DNA from: Rhodovulum sp. MB263
Lineage (GTDB): Bacteria; Pseudomonadota; Alphaproteobacteria; Rhodobacterales; Rhodobacteraceae
Length of the DNA: 64,000 nt
Assembly (NCBI RefSeq): GCF_002073975.1
Contig: NZ_CP020384.1
Coordinates: 992,001-1,056,000 of the forward strand
Direction: 5' to 3'
Position numbers and translations under genes: made by a program. The notes below the pieces were generated by a model. That model had not been told where the DNA came from and did no database searches. It saw only the letters and a list, made by a program, of their open reading frames with translations. Shown piece after piece: positions 3,326 through 55,814 of this stretch (its first letter is position 1; the number at the start of each line of letters is the position of its first letter).

Positions 3326-5419
3326 ATGTCCCGACATTCTTCATCCCGCCCGGCCCCGAGCCGGATCGCGCTCTTTGCTCTGTCCACCGCATTGACGGGC
3401 AGCCTGATCCCGGGCCTGGCGCGGGCCGCAGAGGACACGATCTATCTGGGCGAGATCACCGTCTTCGCCAATTACTGGGAGGAACTGGCCCGCAAATCCG
3501 CCGCGACGGCAACGGTTCTGGGCGAGGGCGATCTGGCGCAGCCGGTCTCGCCCGATCTCGACGCCATGGTGGGGCGTTCGGCCAATACCGTCTTCCAGCG
3601 CGCCAATTCGCAGGAACGGCTGGTCGTGCGCGGCATGTCGGCCTTCGACAATGCGCTGTCCGATCCGGTCGGCTATCTTGTGAACGGCGTGGCGTTGCCG
3701 ATGGGCACGATCCAGCTGCCGCATTTCTTCGGAGCCGCCAATGTGACGCTGCTCAAGGGGCCGCAGGGCACCACCTTCGGGCGCAATTCCGAGGCCGGGC
3801 TGCTGGCCGTCGACACGATCCGGCCCGGCAGCCGCGAGGGCGGCGAGATCACTCTGGGCGTTTCGGGATCGGATGCCGGTGCCTCGCCGCTTGGCGGCAG
3901 CGGGTCGGTGTCGTGGTCCGGGCGTGCGGAAAACGGTCCTGCGCTGTCCTTCGGGCTGGAACATGCCCGCGATCCGGGCGTGATCTCCAACCCGGTTTCC
4001 GGCGCGGATGACGGCGGCAAGAACCGGCGCCTCACCGGTTATGCGGCGGCCGAGTGGGAGTTGCAGGATGGCGGCTATCTGCGCCTGTCCACGCTGGCTG
4101 AGGATCAGAAGTTCAACAAGGAGCAGTTCCGCTATATTTCCGGCCCTCTGGCCACCGGGCGCTATGAAAGCGTCTATTCAGACCCGTCACGGGAGCGTCG
4201 CCGGATATCGGTCACCGCGCTGGAATACGGCACCAGCTTTGACGGGTTCGATCTGACGGCGATCACCGGCTTCACCACCTTCGACCGCGATTTCGTGCTG
4301 GATTTCGACGGTTCTCCGCTGACCCTTGGTGTGACGGAACTGGATGTCCGCGATCGCACCCTCTCGCAGGAGATCCGCCTGACCTCGACCGGTGCGGGGC
4401 TGTTGAAATGGGTGCTCGGCGTCAATGCCTTCAGGCAAAGCACCGATGCCGATTTCGACCTTGGCGCCATGTCGACCGACCGCCATACCGAGATCGACCA
4501 GACAGGCGCGGCGCTTTACGGTTTCGGCGAATATGCGATCAGCGAGCGGTTCCGTCTGGGGGCCGGGCTCCGACTGGATCACGTCTCGTCGGAGGCCTGG
4601 CAGCGCTTCACCTCGCCCATGGCGAGCATGCGCTACGAGGGCGATGACAGCTCGACCACGGTGCTGCCGAAACTGACGCTGGCCTATGACCTGTCGGACA
4701 GGACCACGATCCATGCCAGCTATGCACGCGGCTATATGCCAGCGGGTTACAATTACGGCTTTGCCAACAGCGCCGACAGCCTGAGCTATGACGCCGAATA
4801 CAGCTGGAACGCCGAGATCGGGGTGAAGCATGAATTCGCGACCGGCACGGCGCTGAACCTCGCGGCCTTCCACACCACGGTCAGGGACAAGCAGATCACC
4901 GAGACCATTCCGGGGGCCTCGCAATATATCTCGAATGCCGGCGAGGCGAAAAGCTACGGCATCGAGGCGGAATTGACCGCGCCGCTGGGATCGGGCTGGG
5001 AACTCTCTGCCAATGCCGGATGGCAGCGCGCACGGGCAAGCGCGTTCAGGACCACCTCGATGGATCTGACCACGGGATCGCTGGTGCCGGTCGACTGGTC
5101 GGGCAATGCCCTGCCGATGGCGCCAGAGGAGAGCTGGGGCCTTGCGCTCTCGCGTCAGACGGAGCTCTGGCGCGGAAGGATCAGCCTGCACGGGTCGGGC
5201 AGCTACTGGTTCGATCCGGGCAACAGCGTGAAGCAAGACGGCTTCATGACCGTCGATGCCGAGATTTCCCGACGCTTCGGGAAGGGCGAGCTGACGCTCT
5301 GGGCGAAGAACCTGCTGGATGAGAAATATTACAGCACCGCCTCCTCGACGATCCGCGGCGTGATGGTCGAGGATGGCAGCCCGCGGACAGTCGGCGTGAA
5401 CTGGAGGATGACATGGTGA
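3326..5419 (+). CDS. TonB-dependent outer-membrane receptor
   Basis: A 697-residue outer-membrane protein. A signal peptide ends near ARA at residues 32-34, and a TonB-box-like segment (DTIYLGEITVFA) follows at once. A plug domain comes next (about 45-160, with ERLVVRGM, then LLKGPQGTTFGRN), then a 22-strand type beta-barrel ending in the aromatic residue W. The start is fixed by a strong AAGGAGG at 3313-3319. It should bind a scarce ligand (metal chelate or other compound too large for porins) and pass it to the periplasm using TonB energy. The plug motifs resemble siderophore receptors, but the ligand cannot be read from sequence. The stop overlaps the next gene by 7 nt, so the two are translationally coupled. 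Confidence 0.93.
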   Translation: MSRHSSSRPAPSRIALFALSTALTGSLIPGLARAAEDTIYLGEITVFANYWEELARKSAATATVLGEGDLAQPVSPDLDAMVGRSANTVFQRANSQERLVVRGMSAFDNALSDPVGYLVNGVALPMGTIQLPHFFGAANVTLLKGPQGTTFGRNSEAGLLAVDTIRPGSREGGEITLGVSGSDAGASPLGGSGSVSWSGRAENGPALSFGLEHARDPGVISNPVSGADDGGKNRRLTGYAAAEWELQDGGYLRLSTLAEDQKFNKEQFRYISGPLATGRYESVYSDPSRERRRISVTALEYGTSFDGFDLTAITGFTTFDRDFVLDFDGSPLTLGVTELDVRDRTLSQEIRLTSTGAGLLKWVLGVNAFRQSTDADFDLGAMSTDRHTEIDQTGAALYGFGEYAISERFRLGAGLRLDHVSSEAWQRFTSPMASMRYEGDDSSTTVLPKLTLAYDLSDRTTIHASYARGYMPAGYNYGFANSADSLSYDAEYSWNAEIGVKHEFATGTALNLAAFHTTVRDKQITETIPGASQYISNAGEAKSYGIEAELTAPLGSGWELSANAGWQRARASAFRTTSMDLTTGSLVPVDWSGNALPMAPEESWGLALSRQTELWRGRISLHGSGSYWFDPGNSVKQDGFMTVDAEISRRFGKGELTLWAKNLLDEKYYSTASSTIRGVMVEDGSPRTVGVNWRMTW

Positions 5420-8645: not shown

Positions 8646-9407
8646 CTTTTGCGGTTTTCCGGAGATATGGCTTAGGTGCGTCCAGGGCCCATCCCCGGAT
8701 GACCGGGAAGCCAAGGCGATCGGCTTTCAGGTTGCTCCTCGCGGTCCGCTTGCGCTCCAGGAGGCAACTGCCTGCCTGAGCGATACCGGCAATGGCTGTC
8801 TTCATTTGGCGCGCGGGGCTCTCGGTACTCCCTGGGGCAGGCTGGAATTCCTGCTGGACTGAACCGGCCTTGGGCGGGTTTCGCGCCATCCTGCTGGCTC
8901 TAGCGATACGGTTATGGCCACTTGCCACCGGAGGAATGGTGCTTGGTCAGCCGGTTGAGGTGCATCGATTGGGCCATCAGGCCCTCAAGGAAACCGAGCA
9001 CTACACTTGCCCGGCGAGTCGGAGGCGGGCCGTCATGGGGGGGACAGGAGCAAAACATTGTAACGATTGCCGCGCAAGTTGCAACATTTCCGGAAAAGTC
9101 GTGAGTTGTCAGTTGGACATTTTGTGCCGGATATCACGCGAACTCTGACTCGCAGGTGCTATTTTTCTGAATCAAATGGGCAGGCGGCGTCACGCAAAAG
9201 CACCCCAAACGTCAAGCGTTTTCGACCCAAGTCAGTCCCTCGCAACGCCTTCACAAAGGGCTGCCTGCGGTCATCCGTCCCGCCTGGTGCGAAGGCTGCT
9301 ATCGGCAGCGAGCGCCGAAGTGGGTGGCGCTAGGCGCTCAAGCGCCATGCTGCGCTGCCGCAGGTCCGTTCCGAGCCCTTACCGTTTGACGCTGCGCGAG
9401 GAAGCTA
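8646..9407. other. gene-poor stretch between the importer and an IS element
   Basis: About 760 bases holding only short frames without ribosome binding sites or family resemblance. The composition is less biased than in the flanking genes, consistent with decayed DNA. I see no terminator with a T-run after the ATPase gene. Confidence 0.35.
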
Positions 9408-10284
9408 GGCTGCAGCCCCATTGATTTCAGGCATTTGGCATGATTCAGGCTCCGCAAGGAGACCTGATCGATGAGCAATCTTTACTGGCTGAGCGATGCA
9501 CAGATGGAACGCCTGAAGCCGTTCTTTCCCAAGAGCCATGGTAAGCCCCGCGTCGATGATCGTCGCGTCCTCAGCGGCATAATCTTCATCAATCGCAATG
9601 GGTTGCGTTGGTGCGATGCGCCGAAGGAATACGGCCCGGCGAAGACCCTCTATAACCGTTGGAAGCGCTGGAGGTGAGTGGTTGAACGCCACTGGTTCGA
9701 GAGAAGCCCCGAACACGGGGTCTTCGCCCGGATCATGGTCGGCCTGGCCGCCAAGAGCGCCGAACACAAGACGATCATGATCGATGCAACCTACCTCAAG
9801 GCACAGCGCACGGCGTCGAGCCTTGGGGTGAAAAAGGGGGGCGCGAGCGCCAGATAGGTCGGACGAAGGGCGGTATGAACACCAAGCTGCACGCCGTTGC
9901 CGACGCCAAGGGGTGCCTGATCGGGTTCTTCATGTCGGCTGGGCAGGTCAGCGATTATACCGGCGCGGCGGCGCTGCTGGCCAGTCTGCCGAAGGCAGGC
10001 TGGCTTCTGACCGATCGGGGCTATGATGCCGATTGGTTCAGAGAAGCGTTGAAAGACAAGGAGATAAAGGTTTGCATCCCCGGCCGGAAATCCCGCAAGA
10101 AGGCGGTGAAATACGACAAGAGGCGGTACAAACGGCGCAACCGCATCGAGATCATGTTCGGGCGGTTGAAGGATTGGAGGCGTGTCGCCACCCGATACGA
10201 CCGGTGCCCGGAAACCTTCTTCTCTGGGATCATGCTCGCCGCAACCGTCTTGTTCTGGCTGTGAAACTCAATGAGTCTGGACCC
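9408..10284 (+). mobile_element. IS5-family element of the IS427 type, about 877 bp
   Basis: Imperfect terminal inverted repeats bound the element: GGCTGCAGCCCCATTGA at 9408-9424 and, reversed, GGGTCCAGACTCATTGA at 10268-10284 (13 of 17 match). They enclose the two-frame transposase. CTA lies just outside the left end and TAA just outside the right, close to the TNA target used by this group but not identical, so the copy is old or the flanks have mutated. Confidence 0.75.
9471..10264 (+). pseudogene. IS5-family transposase in two frames, with an internal stop
   Basis: The first frame (from ATG 9471, after AAGGAG) gives the N-terminal domain up to NRWKRWR and stops at TGA 9675-9677. The same frame then goes on with GVFARIMVGLAAKSAEHK, IMIDATYLKAQRTASSLGVKKGG, holding the first catalytic aspartate. 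About ten extra codons around the stop (VVERHWFERSPEH) are absent from usual relatives. At 9831-9840 (AAAAAGGGGG) a -1 shift leads into the second frame (GRERQIGRTKGGMNTKLHAV), which carries DRGYDADW and the final RIEIMFGRLKDWRRVATRYD with the glutamate. The -1 shift is the known expression mode of the IS427 group; the internal TGA makes this copy probably inactive. Confidence 0.8.
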
Positions 10285-10981
10285 TAAGGCTGGCGTGAGG
10301 TGGTCGGGTGTCTTGCCGCCTCGAGTCGCGGATCGGGGTATAAGGTAACTGCGGTCTGATAGGCTCTCTCTCCTTGCTTCCCTCGGGGCAGGGCGTGAGG
10401 GGGGCAGCGCGCTGATGGCGGATGCGATCTGCCGGATGCAGGGCACATGCAAAGGTGCGGCGCTGGTCGGAACCCCCGGATCGTATCGCCGGCCTGGCCT
10501 ACGGTCCTTTGCGCGTCTCGCGGATCGTCGGCTGTCTTCGCAGACATGTCGAGGCCTTGCCATTCGATGCGGCGGAACCGGAAGGCGGGCTATGCCATCA
10601 CCCCGCATTCGGGCTGACGCAGAGAGACTTGACGCAAGCCCGGGATGCAGGACGGATCCGGCGCATCTGCCCCCTGGAGGGAATGGAACGCTGGCAATCG
10701 GCGGACATGCCGGTTGTGGCGTCGCATGACCGATAGGGCTGCCATCCGGCCGATGCGTTGCGCTCCGTAATTTGCGTGGGCCCCATCCGGTTTGAAACCG
10801 CTCGGGACATGCATCCGGGCGTCGTGACGAGCTTGCCGCAAAATCAGCGGGAAAGGGATAAAGGCCGGGCGGCCCCGTTCGGGCGCGGGCGGCAATTTCT
10901 CCCTTCGATTTCCCCGTCAAAAAGCCCCGGCCGGAAGGGTCGGGGCTGGTTGTCGTGAAGCTGCCGGGGCGGGCAGGGCGC
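10285..10981. other. gene-free stretch between IS element and DUF1127 gene
   Basis: About 700 bases with overlapping short frames in several phases, none with a convincing start or known family. The last 60 bases hold AAAGCCCCGGCCGGAAGGGTCGGGGCTGG, split as AGCCCCGGCC and GGTCGGGGCT, a hairpin that could end transcription of the minus-strand DUF1127 gene. Confidence 0.35.
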
Positions 10982-50687: not shown

Positions 50688-51340
50688 TCGGCGCGGTGAT
50701 CGAGCTTTTGCGCCGTGTGGCCGATCTCGGCGGGCCGGTGGTTCTGATCCTGATCGGGGTCTCGGTCCTGACGGTGGCAGTCGTGCTTTACAAGCTCTGG
50801 CAATTCGCGGCCTCGGGCGTCGGCCGGCACCGGGCGCTGTCGGAGGCGGTCGCGCATTGGGACAGGGGCGAGAGGGACCGGGCGCGGGCCGCGCTCGAGG
50901 GTTCGCGCAGCTATCTGCGCCCGGTGGTCGATCTTGCGATGTCGGGGCAGACCGATCCCGAGCGGCTGGAGGCCGAGGCCGAGGTCCGCTTTGCCCGGCT
51001 GGAAAGCGGCTTCCGGCTCCTCGACTCGGTCGCGCAGCTCTCGCCGCTGCTGGGGCTGTTCGGCACCGTCCTGGGCATGATCGCGGCGTTTCAGGCGCTG
51101 CAGGCGGCGGGCACGCAGGTCGACCCGTCGATCCTTGCGGGCGGTATCTGGGTGGCGCTTCTGACCACGGCGGTCGGTCTGGCCGTGGCGATGCCGACGG
51201 CGCTGATCCTGAGCTGGTTCGAAGGCCGGATGGAGGCCGAGCGGGTGCTGGCCGAGACCGCCATTCACACCGTTCTGGCCCCCGGCAATGCGCCCGGCGC
51301 GCCCGGACCGGTCGCGTCGGACGGTCGGGATCATGGCTAG
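50684..51340 (+). CDS. exbB: ExbB-type proton channel protein
   Basis: A 218-residue inner-membrane protein of the MotA/TolQ/ExbB family. Membrane segments are at about 18-38, 112-135 (VAQLSPLLGLFGTVLGMIAA) and 150-172 (ILAGGIWVALLTTAVGLAVAM, given as GGIWVALLTTAVGLAVA). It is shorter and distinct from tolQ in this window. It forms the pentamer that, with ExbD, converts proton flow into TonB movement. It overlaps exbD by 8 nt. Confidence 0.92.
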   Translation: MIGAVIELLRRVADLGGPVVLILIGVSVLTVAVVLYKLWQFAASGVGRHRALSEAVAHWDRGERDRARAALEGSRSYLRPVVDLAMSGQTDPERLEAEAEVRFARLESGFRLLDSVAQLSPLLGLFGTVLGMIAAFQALQAAGTQVDPSILAGGIWVALLTTAVGLAVAMPTALILSWFEGRMEAERVLAETAIHTVLAPGNAPGAPGPVASDGRDHG

Positions 51341-51707
51341 GCCGCGGCGGCGGCGGCTGTCGCTCACGTCGCTGGTCGACGTGATCTTCCTGCTGCTGCT
51401 CTTCTTCATGCTGAGCTCGACCTTCACCCGGTTTGCCGAGGTCGATCTCGTGGCGGCCGGGCAGGGCGGGGCGGCGGCGGACAGCGAGACGCGGCCGCTT
51501 TTCCTGCAGCTCGAGCCCGACCGGCTGCGGCTGAACGGTCGCGCGCTTGACCTTGACGGACTGGCCGAAGGGCTGGGTCCGGTCGAGCCGGGGCAGGTCG
51601 TGCTGGTGGCGCTGCGCGGCGGGGTCAGTGCGCAGCGGCTGACCGATCTTCTGGTCGCGCTTCGCGCGATCCCGGGGCTGGGCGTGACTGTACTGGGGGC
51701 GACATGA
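51333..51707 (+). CDS. exbD: ExbD-type protein, first copy, with the normal membrane aspartate
   Basis: A 124-residue protein with a basic N-terminus (MARPRRRRLSL), a single membrane segment with the conserved aspartate (SLVDVIFLLLLFFMLSS, about residue 16) and a periplasmic domain. The aspartate carries the proton in the ExbB pore. It is followed by a second, different ExbD gene that overlaps by 4 nt. Confidence 0.9.
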   Translation: MARPRRRRLSLTSLVDVIFLLLLFFMLSSTFTRFAEVDLVAAGQGGAAADSETRPLFLQLEPDRLRLNGRALDLDGLAEGLGPVEPGQVVLVALRGGVSAQRLTDLLVALRAIPGLGVTVLGAT

Positions 51708-52117
51708 TGGCCAGACAAGCTGCGATCAGGGCTGCGAAGGCACGCCGTGCCGGGCGCGAGCCGACCATCGCACTGATCAATATCGTCTTCCTGCTGCTGA
51801 TCTTCTTCCTCGTCGCAGGCACGCTGGCGGCGCCGCTCGATGCGACCCTGAAACTGGTCGATACCGAGGGGCTGGAAGGGGCTGCGCCCGCCGAGGCGCT
51901 GGTTCTGCATGCCGATGGGCGGATCACGCTGCAAGAGCAGGCGACGACGCCCGAGGCCTTCGTCGCCGGGCTTGAGAAGCCCGAGACGGGCGTCACCATC
52001 GCCCGGGTCGTTCCCGATCGCGACGTGCCTGCAGCCGATCTTGTGGCGCTTGGGCAGGCCTTGCGCGCAGCCGGGGCCGAACGGGTGGTGATCGTCACCG
52101 AACGGGGGCTGCAATGA
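51704..52117 (+). CDS. ExbD-type protein, second copy, membrane aspartate replaced by asparagine
   Basis: A 137-residue ExbD/TolR-like protein. The N-terminus is basic (RQAAIRAAKARRAGRE) and the single membrane helix aligns with TolR and the first ExbD, but where they read MVDVM or LVDVI it reads LINIV (TIALINIVFLLLIFFLVAG, about 22-40). The proton-carrying aspartate is thus asparagine. The periplasmic part is normal (GRITLQEQATTPEAFVAGLE). It probably pairs with the first ExbD in a mixed dimer. It overlaps tonB by 4 nt. Confidence 0.88.
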   Translation: MMARQAAIRAAKARRAGREPTIALINIVFLLLIFFLVAGTLAAPLDATLKLVDTEGLEGAAPAEALVLHADGRITLQEQATTPEAFVAGLEKPETGVTIARVVPDRDVPAADLVALGQALRAAGAERVVIVTERGLQ

Positions 52118-53044: not shown

Positions 53045-53569
53045 ATGAGCGAGACCGGCGACGATGCGAGCTTTCGTGTGGCGGCGATCCCGCTTTCCCG
53101 AGAGCCGTCTGTCGACCCGTTGCTGGCGACGGTGGTGGCGGTGCTTCGCGCCGAGGGCGTTCGTGTCGCGGGCTTCCGACAGGAGCGCGGCGCGGATGGC
53201 GGCCTGGCGGTCGAGGATCTGACCGGCGGCGGCGTCTTCCCGATCTCGCAGCAGCTGGGCTCGGGTTCGGAGGGCTGCAGTCTCGATCCGCAGGGCCTGG
53301 CCGAGGCCGCCTGCGCGGCGCTGGCCGCGCTGGAGACCGGCCCCGATCTGCTGATCCTGCCGCGTTTCGGCAAGGCCGAGGCCGAGGGGCAGGGGTTCCG
53401 CGCGGTGATCGAGCGCGCCTGCGAATGGCAGGTGCCGGTGCTGGTCGCGGTCAAGCCCGATTGCAGCGAGGCCTGGGAGGCGTTCACCGGCGGGGCCGCC
53501 GCCCGGCTTGCCCCCGACCGGGACGCGCTTCTCGAGTGGTGCCGGGCGGGGCTGGGCGTCCGCACCTGA
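53045..53569 (+). CDS. DUF2478 protein, molybdenum-gene neighbour
   Basis: A 174-residue protein resembling nucleotide-binding proteins that often sit near molybdate transport or molybdenum cofactor genes. The DUF2478 signature is DLLILPRFGKAEAEGQGFRA (about 101-120) and VPVLVAVKPDCSEAWEAFTG. The role is not known. It is 1.2 kb from modE, from which an IS remnant now separates it. The two converge, so they were never co-transcribed. Confidence 0.75.
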   Translation: MSETGDDASFRVAAIPLSREPSVDPLLATVVAVLRAEGVRVAGFRQERGADGGLAVEDLTGGGVFPISQQLGSGSEGCSLDPQGLAEAACAALAALETGPDLLILPRFGKAEAEGQGFRAVIERACEWQVPVLVAVKPDCSEAWEAFTGGAAARLAPDRDALLEWCRAGLGVRT

Positions 53570-53597
53570 CGCGGCGCGCGGGCTCTGCCGGGTCTAG

Positions 53598-54780
53598 CAG
53601 GGTGCTGAAATAGTCGTACCTCGACGCCGGTTGCAGAACATGATTCATCCGCCGGGGATCAACGGCGGATACAGGCATGCGCGGTGCAGACGAGACGAGC
53701 GGATCGCTGTTCAGCTATGTCGATCTCGAGGTGCGCATCCCCGCCCGGCATCCGCTGCGGAAGATCCGTCAGGTGGTGAATGACGCGCTCGCCAGCCTCG
53801 ATGCAGAATTCGAGGTGTTCTACACTGACTTCGGCCGTCCCTCGATCGCGCCGGAGCGCCTGATCCGCGCGAGCCTGCTGCAGATCCTCTACTCCGTCCG
53901 CTCCGAGCGGCAGCTGATGGAGCAGCTGGACTACAACCTGTTGTTCCGCTGGTTCGTGGGGCTTGGCATCGACGACCAGGTCTGGGTCCCGACCGTGTTC
54001 AGCAAGAACCGCGACCGCCTTTTGACCACCGACATGTCACGCAAGGTGATGGCTGCCATCCTGGCCCACCGAGAGGTCGCGCCGCCGCTTTCGGACGACC
54101 ACTTCTCGGTCGACGGCACGCTGGTGAAAGCCTGGGCCTCGATGAAGAGCGTCCGGCCGAAAGAGGATGGCGATCCCGGCGATCCTCCGGCAGGGGACGC
54201 CGCCCCGCAAAGCCCCTCCCCGCGGCCCGATCCGGAAACCCGCCAGATGCCCCTTCCCGCCAGCCGCAATGCCGAAGTCGATTTCCGGGGTCAGAAGCGC
54301 ACGAACGCGACGCATGCCTCGACGACAGATGCGGTTGTACGGCTCTACCGGAAATCTCCGGGCACCGGCGCGATGCTATGCTTCATCGGGCGCACTTATG
54401 GAGAACCGCAGCGGGCTGGCCGTCCAGGGCGACCTGACCCGCGCAGAAGGCGCGGTCCTCCGTCATCGACGGACGGACCACCCGGCACAATGGCTATGCG
54501 CTGTCGCAGAAGCACCGGAAGCGGATCGAGGAACTCTTCGGCTGGTCCAAGACGGTGGGAGGCGCGGCGCAGACGGCCTGTCGCGGCGTGGAGCGGGTGC
54601 GGTCCCGCTTCATCCTCGCCCTGGCGGCGGCAAATCTTGCCCGGCTGCCGCGAATACTGGCGATTTGAGGGCGGAGACTCCCGACCAGCATGCCGCGTGG
54701 CGGGAAGACGGCGGATAGGAGCAGCGCAATGGCAGGAACGGAGGAAGCCGTTCCGACCAATCGACTATTTCAGCACCCTG
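53598..54780 (+). mobile_element. decayed IS5-family element with perfect 19-bp ends, 1183 bp
   Basis: CAGGGTGCTGAAATAGTCG at 53598-53616 and its exact complement at 54762-54780 bound a broken transposase. CTAG lies left of the element and TTAG right of it, close to the four-base YTAR duplication of IS5-type elements. The perfect ends with a damaged inside suggest that it could still be moved by an intact copy elsewhere. Confidence 0.88.
53677..54668 (+). pseudogene. IS5-family transposase, internally deleted and frameshifted
   Basis: The N-terminal half is complete (RPSIAPERLIRASLLQILYS, SERQLMEQLDYNLLFRWFVG, DDHFSVDGTLVKAWASMKS with the first aspartate) down to RLYRKSPGTGAMLCFIGRT. A frame change near 54400 then leads to LMENRSGLAVQGDLTRA, after which about 60 codons including the second catalytic aspartate are missing. 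A third frame gives the C-terminus (GRTTRHNGYALSQKHRKRIE, ELFGWSKTVGGAAQTACRG) to TGA 54666-54668. No active enzyme can be made. Confidence 0.88.
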
Positions 54781-55566
54781 TTAGGGCAGCGCCAGGATCA
54801 CATGGCTCGACTTGATCAGCGCGGTTGCGCTGTCACCCGGGGCAAGCGCCAGCGCCTCGGCGCTTTCGCGGGTGATGGTCGCGGCCAGCGTCTTGTCGCC
54901 GCCGAGATCGAGCACGATCTCGCTGTTCACCGGCCCGTCGGTGCGGCCGGTGACGGTGCCGCTCAGCCGGTTGCGCACCGAGAGCGGGCCGAAATCCCGA
55001 CCCTTGGCGAGGATGACGAAGCTGGACTTGACCAGCGCGAAGACCTCGATGCCGGGGGCAAGCCCCATCCCGGCGGCGCTCTGGCCGGTGATGACCGAGG
55101 TCAGGGCCTGGCCGCCGCCGATATCCATCTGCACCTCGGCGCTGACGGGGCTTTCGGTGACCGCGGTCACGGTGGCGCGATAGGTGTTGCGGGCCGAGGT
55201 CTTCATCATCAGGCTCCAGAGAATATCGCCGGGATCGAGATCGATCTGGTTGTCCAGCGAGGCGACCACCCGTTCCAGACCCTCCTGGATCGCGGTGAAG
55301 GCGGCGATCACCTTCTCGCCGGCGGGCGTCAGCACGGCGCCGCCGCCCGCGCGTCCGCCGGGGGCGGCGCTGACAAGGGGGCTGGCGAAGATGTTGTTCA
55401 TCGCCTGCACCCCGTCCCAGGCGGCCTTGTAGGACAGGCCAACCTCGCGCGCGGCCGCCGAGATCGAACCGGTGCGGCCGATCGCCGCGAGAAGCGCAAC
55501 CCGGTCGGCGCCCATCCGCGCCCCGGGCCGTTCCAGCGTCAACGCACTGCGCAATCCTACCGGCAT
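54781..55566 (-). CDS. modE: molybdenum-dependent regulator ModE (MopA/MopB type)
   Basis: A 261-residue regulator. The winged helix-turn-helix (about 15-110; GRTGSISAAAREVGLSYKAA) is followed by two molbindin (TOBE) domains (about 127-190 and 196-259; SARNTYRATVTAVTESPVSA, RNRLSGTVTGRTDGPVNSE, both ending in KSSxVIL). Molybdate binding makes it grip Mo-boxes. In R. capsulatus, MopA and MopB repress molybdate uptake and iron nitrogenase and MopA activates mop. The start at 55566 is chosen before the wing. The TAA stop touches the end of the IS remnant. Confidence 0.93.
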   Translation of the reverse strand: MPVGLRSALTLERPGARMGADRVALLAAIGRTGSISAAAREVGLSYKAAWDGVQAMNNIFASPLVSAAPGGRAGGGAVLTPAGEKVIAAFTAIQEGLERVVASLDNQIDLDPGDILWSLMMKTSARNTYRATVTAVTESPVSAEVQMDIGGGQALTSVITGQSAAGMGLAPGIEVFALVKSSFVILAKGRDFGPLSVRNRLSGTVTGRTDGPVNSEIVLDLGGDKTLAATITRESAEALALAPGDSATALIKSSHVILALP

Positions 55567-55814
55567 GGCCGTCCTGCTCCTTCCGCCGAGATTGCCATGT
55601 CTTAGCGCGAAGCCGGCCGGTCTGCCACTGTCGAGTGCCGCGCGGCCTCCCTCCGCTGCGGGCGGGCGGCCTGCCATGGGGGAGATGCCGGGGACGAACC
55701 GACGGGCCGCGGGATCTGCCGCTGCCGCTTTCCCGGGCGCTGCCAGTCGGCATGGCGGGGAAAGGCGTCACTTCCCGCGCAAAACCGCGCGGTCGGTTGG
55801 GCGATCTTGTCTCG

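Follow-up and report, generated by a model that had tools for sequence, protein, structure and literature searches.

The DNA analysed in this study (the window) is a stretch of 64,000 nucleotides from Rhodovulum sp. MB263, in which an operon for a secreted protein, ExbB, two ExbDs and TonB lies on the plus strand in that order and almost without gaps. The two ExbD genes, which overlap by ATGA, differ at the site of the proton-carrying membrane residue: the first product, ExbD1, carries aspartate (Asp16) and the second, ExbD2, carries asparagine (Asn26). This tandem pair had been singled out in an initial annotation, and its coordinates and both residues were found to be exactly as given there, as was the membrane aspartate of the TolR encoded in the window. 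The positions of the genes and of the residues discussed below are listed in Table 1.

Table 1. Genes and key residues of the ExbB-ExbD1-ExbD2-TonB operon in the window
Feature	Position	Strand	Basis
Secreted/hypothetical protein, 146 aa	50247..50687	+	ORF, 5' of ExbB
ExbB, MotA/TolQ/ExbB family, 218 aa	50684..51340	+	PF01618, 97 bits
ExbB Val codon, position equivalent to E. coli TolQ Glu173	51152..51154	+	alignment to TolQ/ExbB chains
ExbD1, 124 aa, membrane Asp and Thr at -4 present	51333..51707	+	PF02472, 41.6 bits
ExbD1 Asp16, codon GAC, proton-carrying site by homology	51378..51380	+	SLTSLVDVIFLLLLFFM
ExbD1 Gln101, typical of ExbD1 in D/N pairs	51633..51635	+	alignment column 240
ExbD2, 137 aa, membrane Asp replaced by Asn	51704..52117	+	PF02472, 47.9 bits
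ExbD2 Asn26, codon AAT, aligned with E. coli ExbD Asp25	51779..51781	+	TIALINIVFLLLIFFLV
ExbD2 Asp105, at the site of E. coli ExbD Asp107 (periplasmic, near-universal)	52016..52018	+	profile alignment; column 232
TonB-like protein, 252 aa	52114..52872	+	PF13103/PF03544

Both ExbD products score above the PF02472 cut-off of 25.4 bits. Against the NCBIfam model TIGR02803 (ExbD_1; cut-off 152.95) ExbD1 and ExbD2 reach 15.8 and 18.4 bits, respectively, and against TIGR02801 (tolR; cut-off 127.3) ExbD1 reaches 15.6 bits, all below the cut-offs. The TonB-like protein matches TIGR01352 with 57.4 bits (cut-off 27.1), and alignment to TolQ/ExbB chains showed that the window ExbB has the pore threonine in both its GTV and its TTA motif. 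The secreted protein encoded at the 5' end gave no Pfam or NCBIfam match at an E value of 0.1; it shares 55% identity over 113 aa with the hypothetical protein that occupies the same slot in a plasmid cluster of Phaeobacter inhibens, and could be an additional component of the Ton system. The region that follows the operon (53045-55677) encodes a DUF2478 protein directly 3' of it, a ModE-like regulator (HTH_1 plus TOBE) on the opposite strand and, as judged by eye, a transposase-like frame.

In a profile alignment to solved chains, ExbD2 Asn26 falls on Asp25 of E. coli ExbD (6tyi), and counting along the same alignment places Asp105 of ExbD2 on Asp107 of the E. coli protein. The predicted structure of ExbD2 (mean pLDDT 85) consists of a single long membrane helix, residues 19-41, and an ExbD-like periplasmic domain. 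When this model was compared with the PDB by Foldseek, the seven best matches were all ExbD/TolR domains; the best had an E value of 2.1e-4 and was the only one below 0.001. The proton-carrying aspartate expected in every axle ExbD is present in ExbD1 and replaced by asparagine in ExbD2.

In the genome to which the window belongs, the family search gave eight matches to PF02472, and the search with ExbD2 added a ninth place, the second copy on another contig. These places comprise one TolR and four tandem pairs, and in all four pairs the Asp-bearing copy comes first and the Asn-bearing copy second (hereafter D/N). Neither the PF02472 search nor the ExbD2 search found a single-gene, Asp-only ExbD in this genome besides TolR. 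For TonB-dependent receptors, the same genome has eight barrel matches above the cut-off and a ninth, weak one, together with ten plug matches. The four D/N operons appear to be its only Ton motors; with eight receptors and no other Ton motor found, the D/N motors presumably work, unless TolQR alone drives the receptors. One of the other three pairs has a receptor and a HemS-type protein in the same stretch, and another directly follows a FecCD permease and an ABC ATPase. The remaining pair (L074, positions 8788-10863 on the other contig) is very divergent; after it come a 402-aa protein without a Pfam match, in the TonB slot, and a 2110-aa frame on the opposite strand. For the window operon itself, the nearest receptor within the window lies about 45 kb upstream (barrel at 4019-5314).

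To see how widely the pair occurs, related genomes were searched at several levels. A family search with ExbD2 covered 248 genomes, of which 152 matched at E <=0.001, a count that includes weak matches to other ExbD/TolR proteins; the 30 loci taken from it, which include the best ones and the window, were all D/N. A class search with a profile of N-type rows (289 genomes, 235 with a match) gave D/N at 29 of 29 loci, two of which are places already counted (L155 is the window and L158 repeats L070). Forty further stretches were picked by hand from the search listings, partly for a tandem look, and the 39 informative ones comprised 28 D/N, one D/S, one N at a contig edge and nine single D. A phylum search with ExbD1, which is blind to ExbD2, found a match in 292 of 299 genomes, and its 30 loci were 20 D/N (eight of them repeats of known places), two D/D and eight single D. 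A Pfam survey of 60 genomes of the phylum showed at least four tandem pairs outside the genome of the window, one of them D/N and three of another kind, D/D. When these loci were pooled, with repeated places dropped and loci from an Asn-demanding pattern left out, there were 106 tandem loci: 100 D/N, five D/D and one D/S. A plasmid search with a distant ExbD2 gave no match.

That pattern belongs to a scan of contigs of named species. Since the pattern itself required Asn, the Asn of the scan loci is uninformative and only the upstream partner counts: an Asp-type ExbD lies directly upstream in all 80 loci kept from 566 confirmed. The carriers are Alphaproteobacteria, for example Roseospira, Pelagibius, Thalassobaculum and Maritimibacter, and Gammaproteobacteria (Thioalkalivibrio, Thiocapsa, Ectothiorhodospira, Halopseudomonas, Marinomonas and Neptunomonas). 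Altogether, an Asp-type neighbour accompanies the N-type copy at every one of 181 loci except L217, where the contig edge cuts the neighbour off. Of these 181 loci, pattern loci included, 115 encode the asparagine by AAC and 66 by AAT. The initial annotation had allowed that related genomes might show aspartate here, which would have marked a sequencing error or a private mutation; the second-copy ExbDs of relatives instead have asparagine as the rule, in nearly all cases, and both explanations are thereby excluded. The phenomenon is larger than had been supposed.

Some of the percentages of Asn and Asp rest on rows that were chosen as Asn or Asp; a clade count in a tree built without the Asp/Asn column does not. 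In a FastTree phylogeny of 420 ExbD-family rows built in this way, the ExbD2s form one clade of 184 rows (SH-like 96) from Alpha- and Gammaproteobacteria, in which the site of the membrane aspartate is Asn in 180 rows, Asp in three and Ser in one. The row set omits 19 loci (repeated places, plus L252, a 100-base filler) and domain matches shorter than 85 aa, so that L127 is counted as a single D and L217, whose ExbD1 is cut at a contig end, as a lone N. Identity between N-type rows is as low as 19%. In a more careful tree of 79 rows, in which many forks stay open, the ExbD1s make up a starred group (96/95). The N-type rows do not all fall into a single clade there, the ExbD2s of L215 and L224 standing beside D rows without a settled position.

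The exceptions in the ExbD2 clade are the Asp-bearing copies of L205, L207 and L078 (its first ExbD) and the Ser-bearing copy of L229, and they indicate that the asparagine is not absolutely required. The 79-row tree places the L205 copy (99/99) and the L229 copy (100/98) each as sister to an Asn-bearing ExbD2, so their Asp and Ser look like late changes from Asn. At L078 the exception is a third ExbD (positions 2082-2597), which lies upstream of a full ExbB-ExbD1-ExbD2 set and groups with the ExbD2s. The four copies provide natural controls for the role of the asparagine.

The two paralogs also differ at other conserved positions. The threonine four residues before the membrane aspartate occurs in 44 of 47 single ExbD/TolR rows and in 168 of 178 ExbD1s, and in 5 of 180 ExbD2s. 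The periplasmic aspartate (column 232) shows the reverse pattern, being found in 45/47 single rows, 13/178 ExbD1s and 173/180 ExbD2s. Eight alignment columns further on (column 240), glutamine marks the ExbD1s (167/178, against 5/47 single rows and 7/180 ExbD2s). In these alignments the losses are complementary: ExbD2 is without the membrane aspartate and its threonine and keeps the periplasmic aspartate, and ExbD1 is the other way round. The simplest reading is that neither paralog would be complete alone and that together they would make one axle. The genes are also closely coupled: of 176 pairs, 170 have a possible ExbD2 start no more than 25 nt from the end of ExbD1, and in 70 the two frames overlap by 4 bases, figures that are flattered by taking the nearest possible start.

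Structural work on the E. coli and TolQR motors gives these positions a context. The E. coli ExbD protomers touch through their strand-3/helix-2 loops, and the single TonB D-box strand held by the dimer pairs unequally with its chains, in parallel with one and antiparallel with the other (PMC10907165); by our own placement from the sequence, Asp107 would sit in this contact loop. In TolQR, the protonated TolR aspartate bonds the threonine pair of one ring subunit, and the other, unprotonated aspartate draws in a chain of water (PMC12583513). The first of these ring threonines (GT motif) is Thr in 165 and Ser in one of 166 ExbBs from D/N loci; the TTA threonine was required by the search pattern for these ExbBs. 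In the same TolQ study, replacing Glu173 by Ala was lethal; the corresponding ExbB site is Val in the window, and across the 166 D/N loci with a recognised motif it is Glu 69 times, Val 62 times and Gln 21 times. With Glu at only 69 of 166, proton entry may have changed as well.

We consider it probable that the operon encodes a Ton motor with an obligate ExbD1-ExbD2 heterodimer as its axle, an explanation in which we infer the heterodimer, the role of the asparagine, the proton count and the substrate. Each ExbB pentamer would hold one ExbD1 with Asp and one ExbD2 with Asn. Proton uptake and release would fall to ExbD1 alone, and the asparagine of ExbD2 would act as a permanent stand-in for a neutral, protonated aspartate, hydrogen-bonded to the threonine ring, so that the asymmetry which the chains of a homodimer exchange would here be fixed in the genes. 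With one proton site per axle, the motor would use at most five protons per turn, against ten in the standard model, or might work by a two-state rocking stroke. ExbD2, with its periplasmic aspartate, would be specialised for the interface with its partner and TonB, and the motor would power TonB-dependent uptake, of heme or iron in some relatives. The wider proposal, that ExbB5-ExbD1-ExbD2 is a natural, widespread one-site Ton motor moving by 72-degree steps or rocking, and that the alternating-aspartate rule is not general, is more tentative; we give it somewhat less than an even chance.

Mixed pairing of the two ExbDs had already been put forward in the initial annotation. It now has indirect support, from the Asp-type neighbours of N-type copies, the tight coupling of the genes and the complementary losses, and is still something that we infer. 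The picture of a half-dead motor that came with it is probably wrong: a dead site would drift, yet asparagine is kept in 180 of 184 clade rows, it mimics protonated aspartate, and the genome has eight receptors and no other Ton motor was found in it. The data fit an axle with a single proton site, and do not fit a broken motor. Covariation between the partners was analysed by mean-field DCA on 178 concatenated ExbD1+ExbD2 pairs (Meff about 148), in which the top couplings reached a z of 5.8; none of 24 re-pairings exceeded 4.9. The near-diagonal share of the top ten couplings was 0.4, compared with 0.3-0.6 in neighbour-swapped controls and 0.0-0.3 in random re-pairings. Contacts between homologous loops seemed apparent at first look, but neighbour-swapped pairs show near-diagonal enrichment too, and the couplings do not decide for or against pairing. 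A locus with ExbD1 and ExbD2 in one frame (L171, positions 1003-1884) was set aside as proof of pairing by fusion, being by eye a probable frameshift at the ExbD1 end.

Four other explanations were weighed against the heterodimer. The best of them, which we nevertheless regard as unlikely, is that the two ExbDs form separate homodimers, the ExbD1 motor working and an ExbB5-ExbD2(2) complex, dead to protons, being a parked store or a regulator of TonB. In solved structures the ExbD axle is a homodimer. Asparagine is an isostere of protonated aspartate, and it is treated as a mimic of the protonated residue in structural work on MotB (PMC9022066); an all-Asn complex could thus be a locked resting motor. 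Against this, a residue present in nearly all single ExbD/TolR proteins is missing from most copies of each paralog, which fits complementation better, and the pair is tightly coupled, with no N-type copy lacking an Asp-type neighbour where the DNA is whole. Rather less probable still is a brake, in which ExbD2 would join some of the rings and slow or gate the proton flow of a motor driven by ExbD1. Such a dominant-negative effect would agree with the inactivity of E. coli ExbD(D25N) (PMC11658791), and co-expression would permit control by dosage. The E. coli result concerns an all-Asn axle, however, and says nothing on a mixed one. Throughout the lineages seen, the gene order hardly varies and the coupling is tight, which speaks against a brake, as does the absence of the periplasmic aspartate from 165 of 178 ExbD1s, which suggests that ExbD1 alone is incomplete.

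A further reading, that the asparagine is there for a different ion, Na+ for instance, or for a different mode of coupling, has very little probability in our view. Marine, halophilic or alkaliphilic organisms are among the carriers (Thioalkalivibrio, Halorhodospira, Ectothiorhodospira and Marinomonas), which would suit it, but known Na+ stators keep the aspartate, ExbD1 keeps its own, and ExbB keeps the threonine ring. That ExbD2 is a relic, a duplicate without a proton site retained only by hitchhiking in the operon, can practically be dismissed: the neighbourhood is conserved and an essential residue is gone, but drift would give many residues, and the asparagine is near-constant despite identities down to 19% and is written with two codons.

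As to the role of the motor, TonB-dependent uptake is likely, with heme or iron as the substrate in part of the cases. Around eight orthologs of the window type, 56 of the 82 called neighbours were scanned and included three receptors, three HemS and five FecCD proteins; around eight other D/N loci (51 of 66 neighbours scanned), one receptor and one FecCD protein were among the matches listed, which covered 25 of 89 families. Receptors being few near the other D/N loci, the link to heme and iron by neighbourhood is not general. The plasmid cluster of Phaeobacter inhibens M628 consists of genes for a TonB-dependent receptor, a hypothetical protein, ExbB, ExbD (Asp), ExbD (Asn) and TonB. A heme cluster of the Roseobacter group is described as containing exbB, exbD1, tonB and 'a duplicate of the exbD1 gene (exbD1a)', and for its receptor gene hmuR heme uptake, which was TonB-dependent, was shown by assay in Ruegeria TM1040 (PMC5225302).

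This Roseobacter cluster is probably the same kind of operon as that of the window, as the P. inhibens M628 cluster is D/N. The available text of that report gives the exbD duplicate and does not mention the asparagine, and we found no mention of an ExbD Asp/Asn pair in the open-licence literature. The duplication of exbD in the Roseobacter heme cluster is already in print. Models of ExbBD, TolQR and MotAB have the two axle aspartates protonated in turn, once per 36-degree step (PMC12905483, PMC9022066), and a natural family with one asparagine makes this alternating-aspartate model directly testable. Since the axle is asymmetric by sequence, a defined complex would reveal its orientation, the size of its steps and the number of protons used, and the two ExbD chains, unlike those of a homodimer, could be told apart in cryo-EM. 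Phaeobacter inhibens carries a D/N pair, and the related TM1040 has the cluster with the duplicated exbD (PMC5225302).

Other motors share single traits with this one. Tandem exbD pairs with aspartate in both copies (L068, L069 and L071, from other proteobacteria) also have two exbD genes in a row, but differ in having Asp twice; in the 79-row tree the six sequences from these pairs cluster with four TolR/single rows (100/99), apart from the D/N pair. They resemble the exbD1-exbD2 sets of Xanthomonas and sphingomonads. In the MotB Asp22Asn stator (PMC9022066) asparagine likewise replaces an essential aspartate and mimics its protonation, but as a laboratory change in an axle made by a single gene, whereas the change described here is natural and confined to one of two paralogs. 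Heterologous pairs of tolR-like or TPH-vWA genes (PMC12204202) and the AglRQ/S system (PMC9389320) place two different axle proteins beside one ring gene. The accessible text on the vWA pairs describes the aspartate as conserved and no Asp/Asn split, and that on AglQ/S describes no such split and states that homo- or heterodimerization is unknown. Compared with the E. coli motor ExbB5-ExbD2-TonB, the operon of the window has the same ExbB, ExbD and TonB families, the threonine ring and the periplasmic ExbD fold, and differs in having two exbD genes, the second with Asn, where E. coli has one exbD and Asp25 in both chains. The occurrence of the Asp/Asn pair in many bacteria suggests a motor with one proton site where the textbook models need two.
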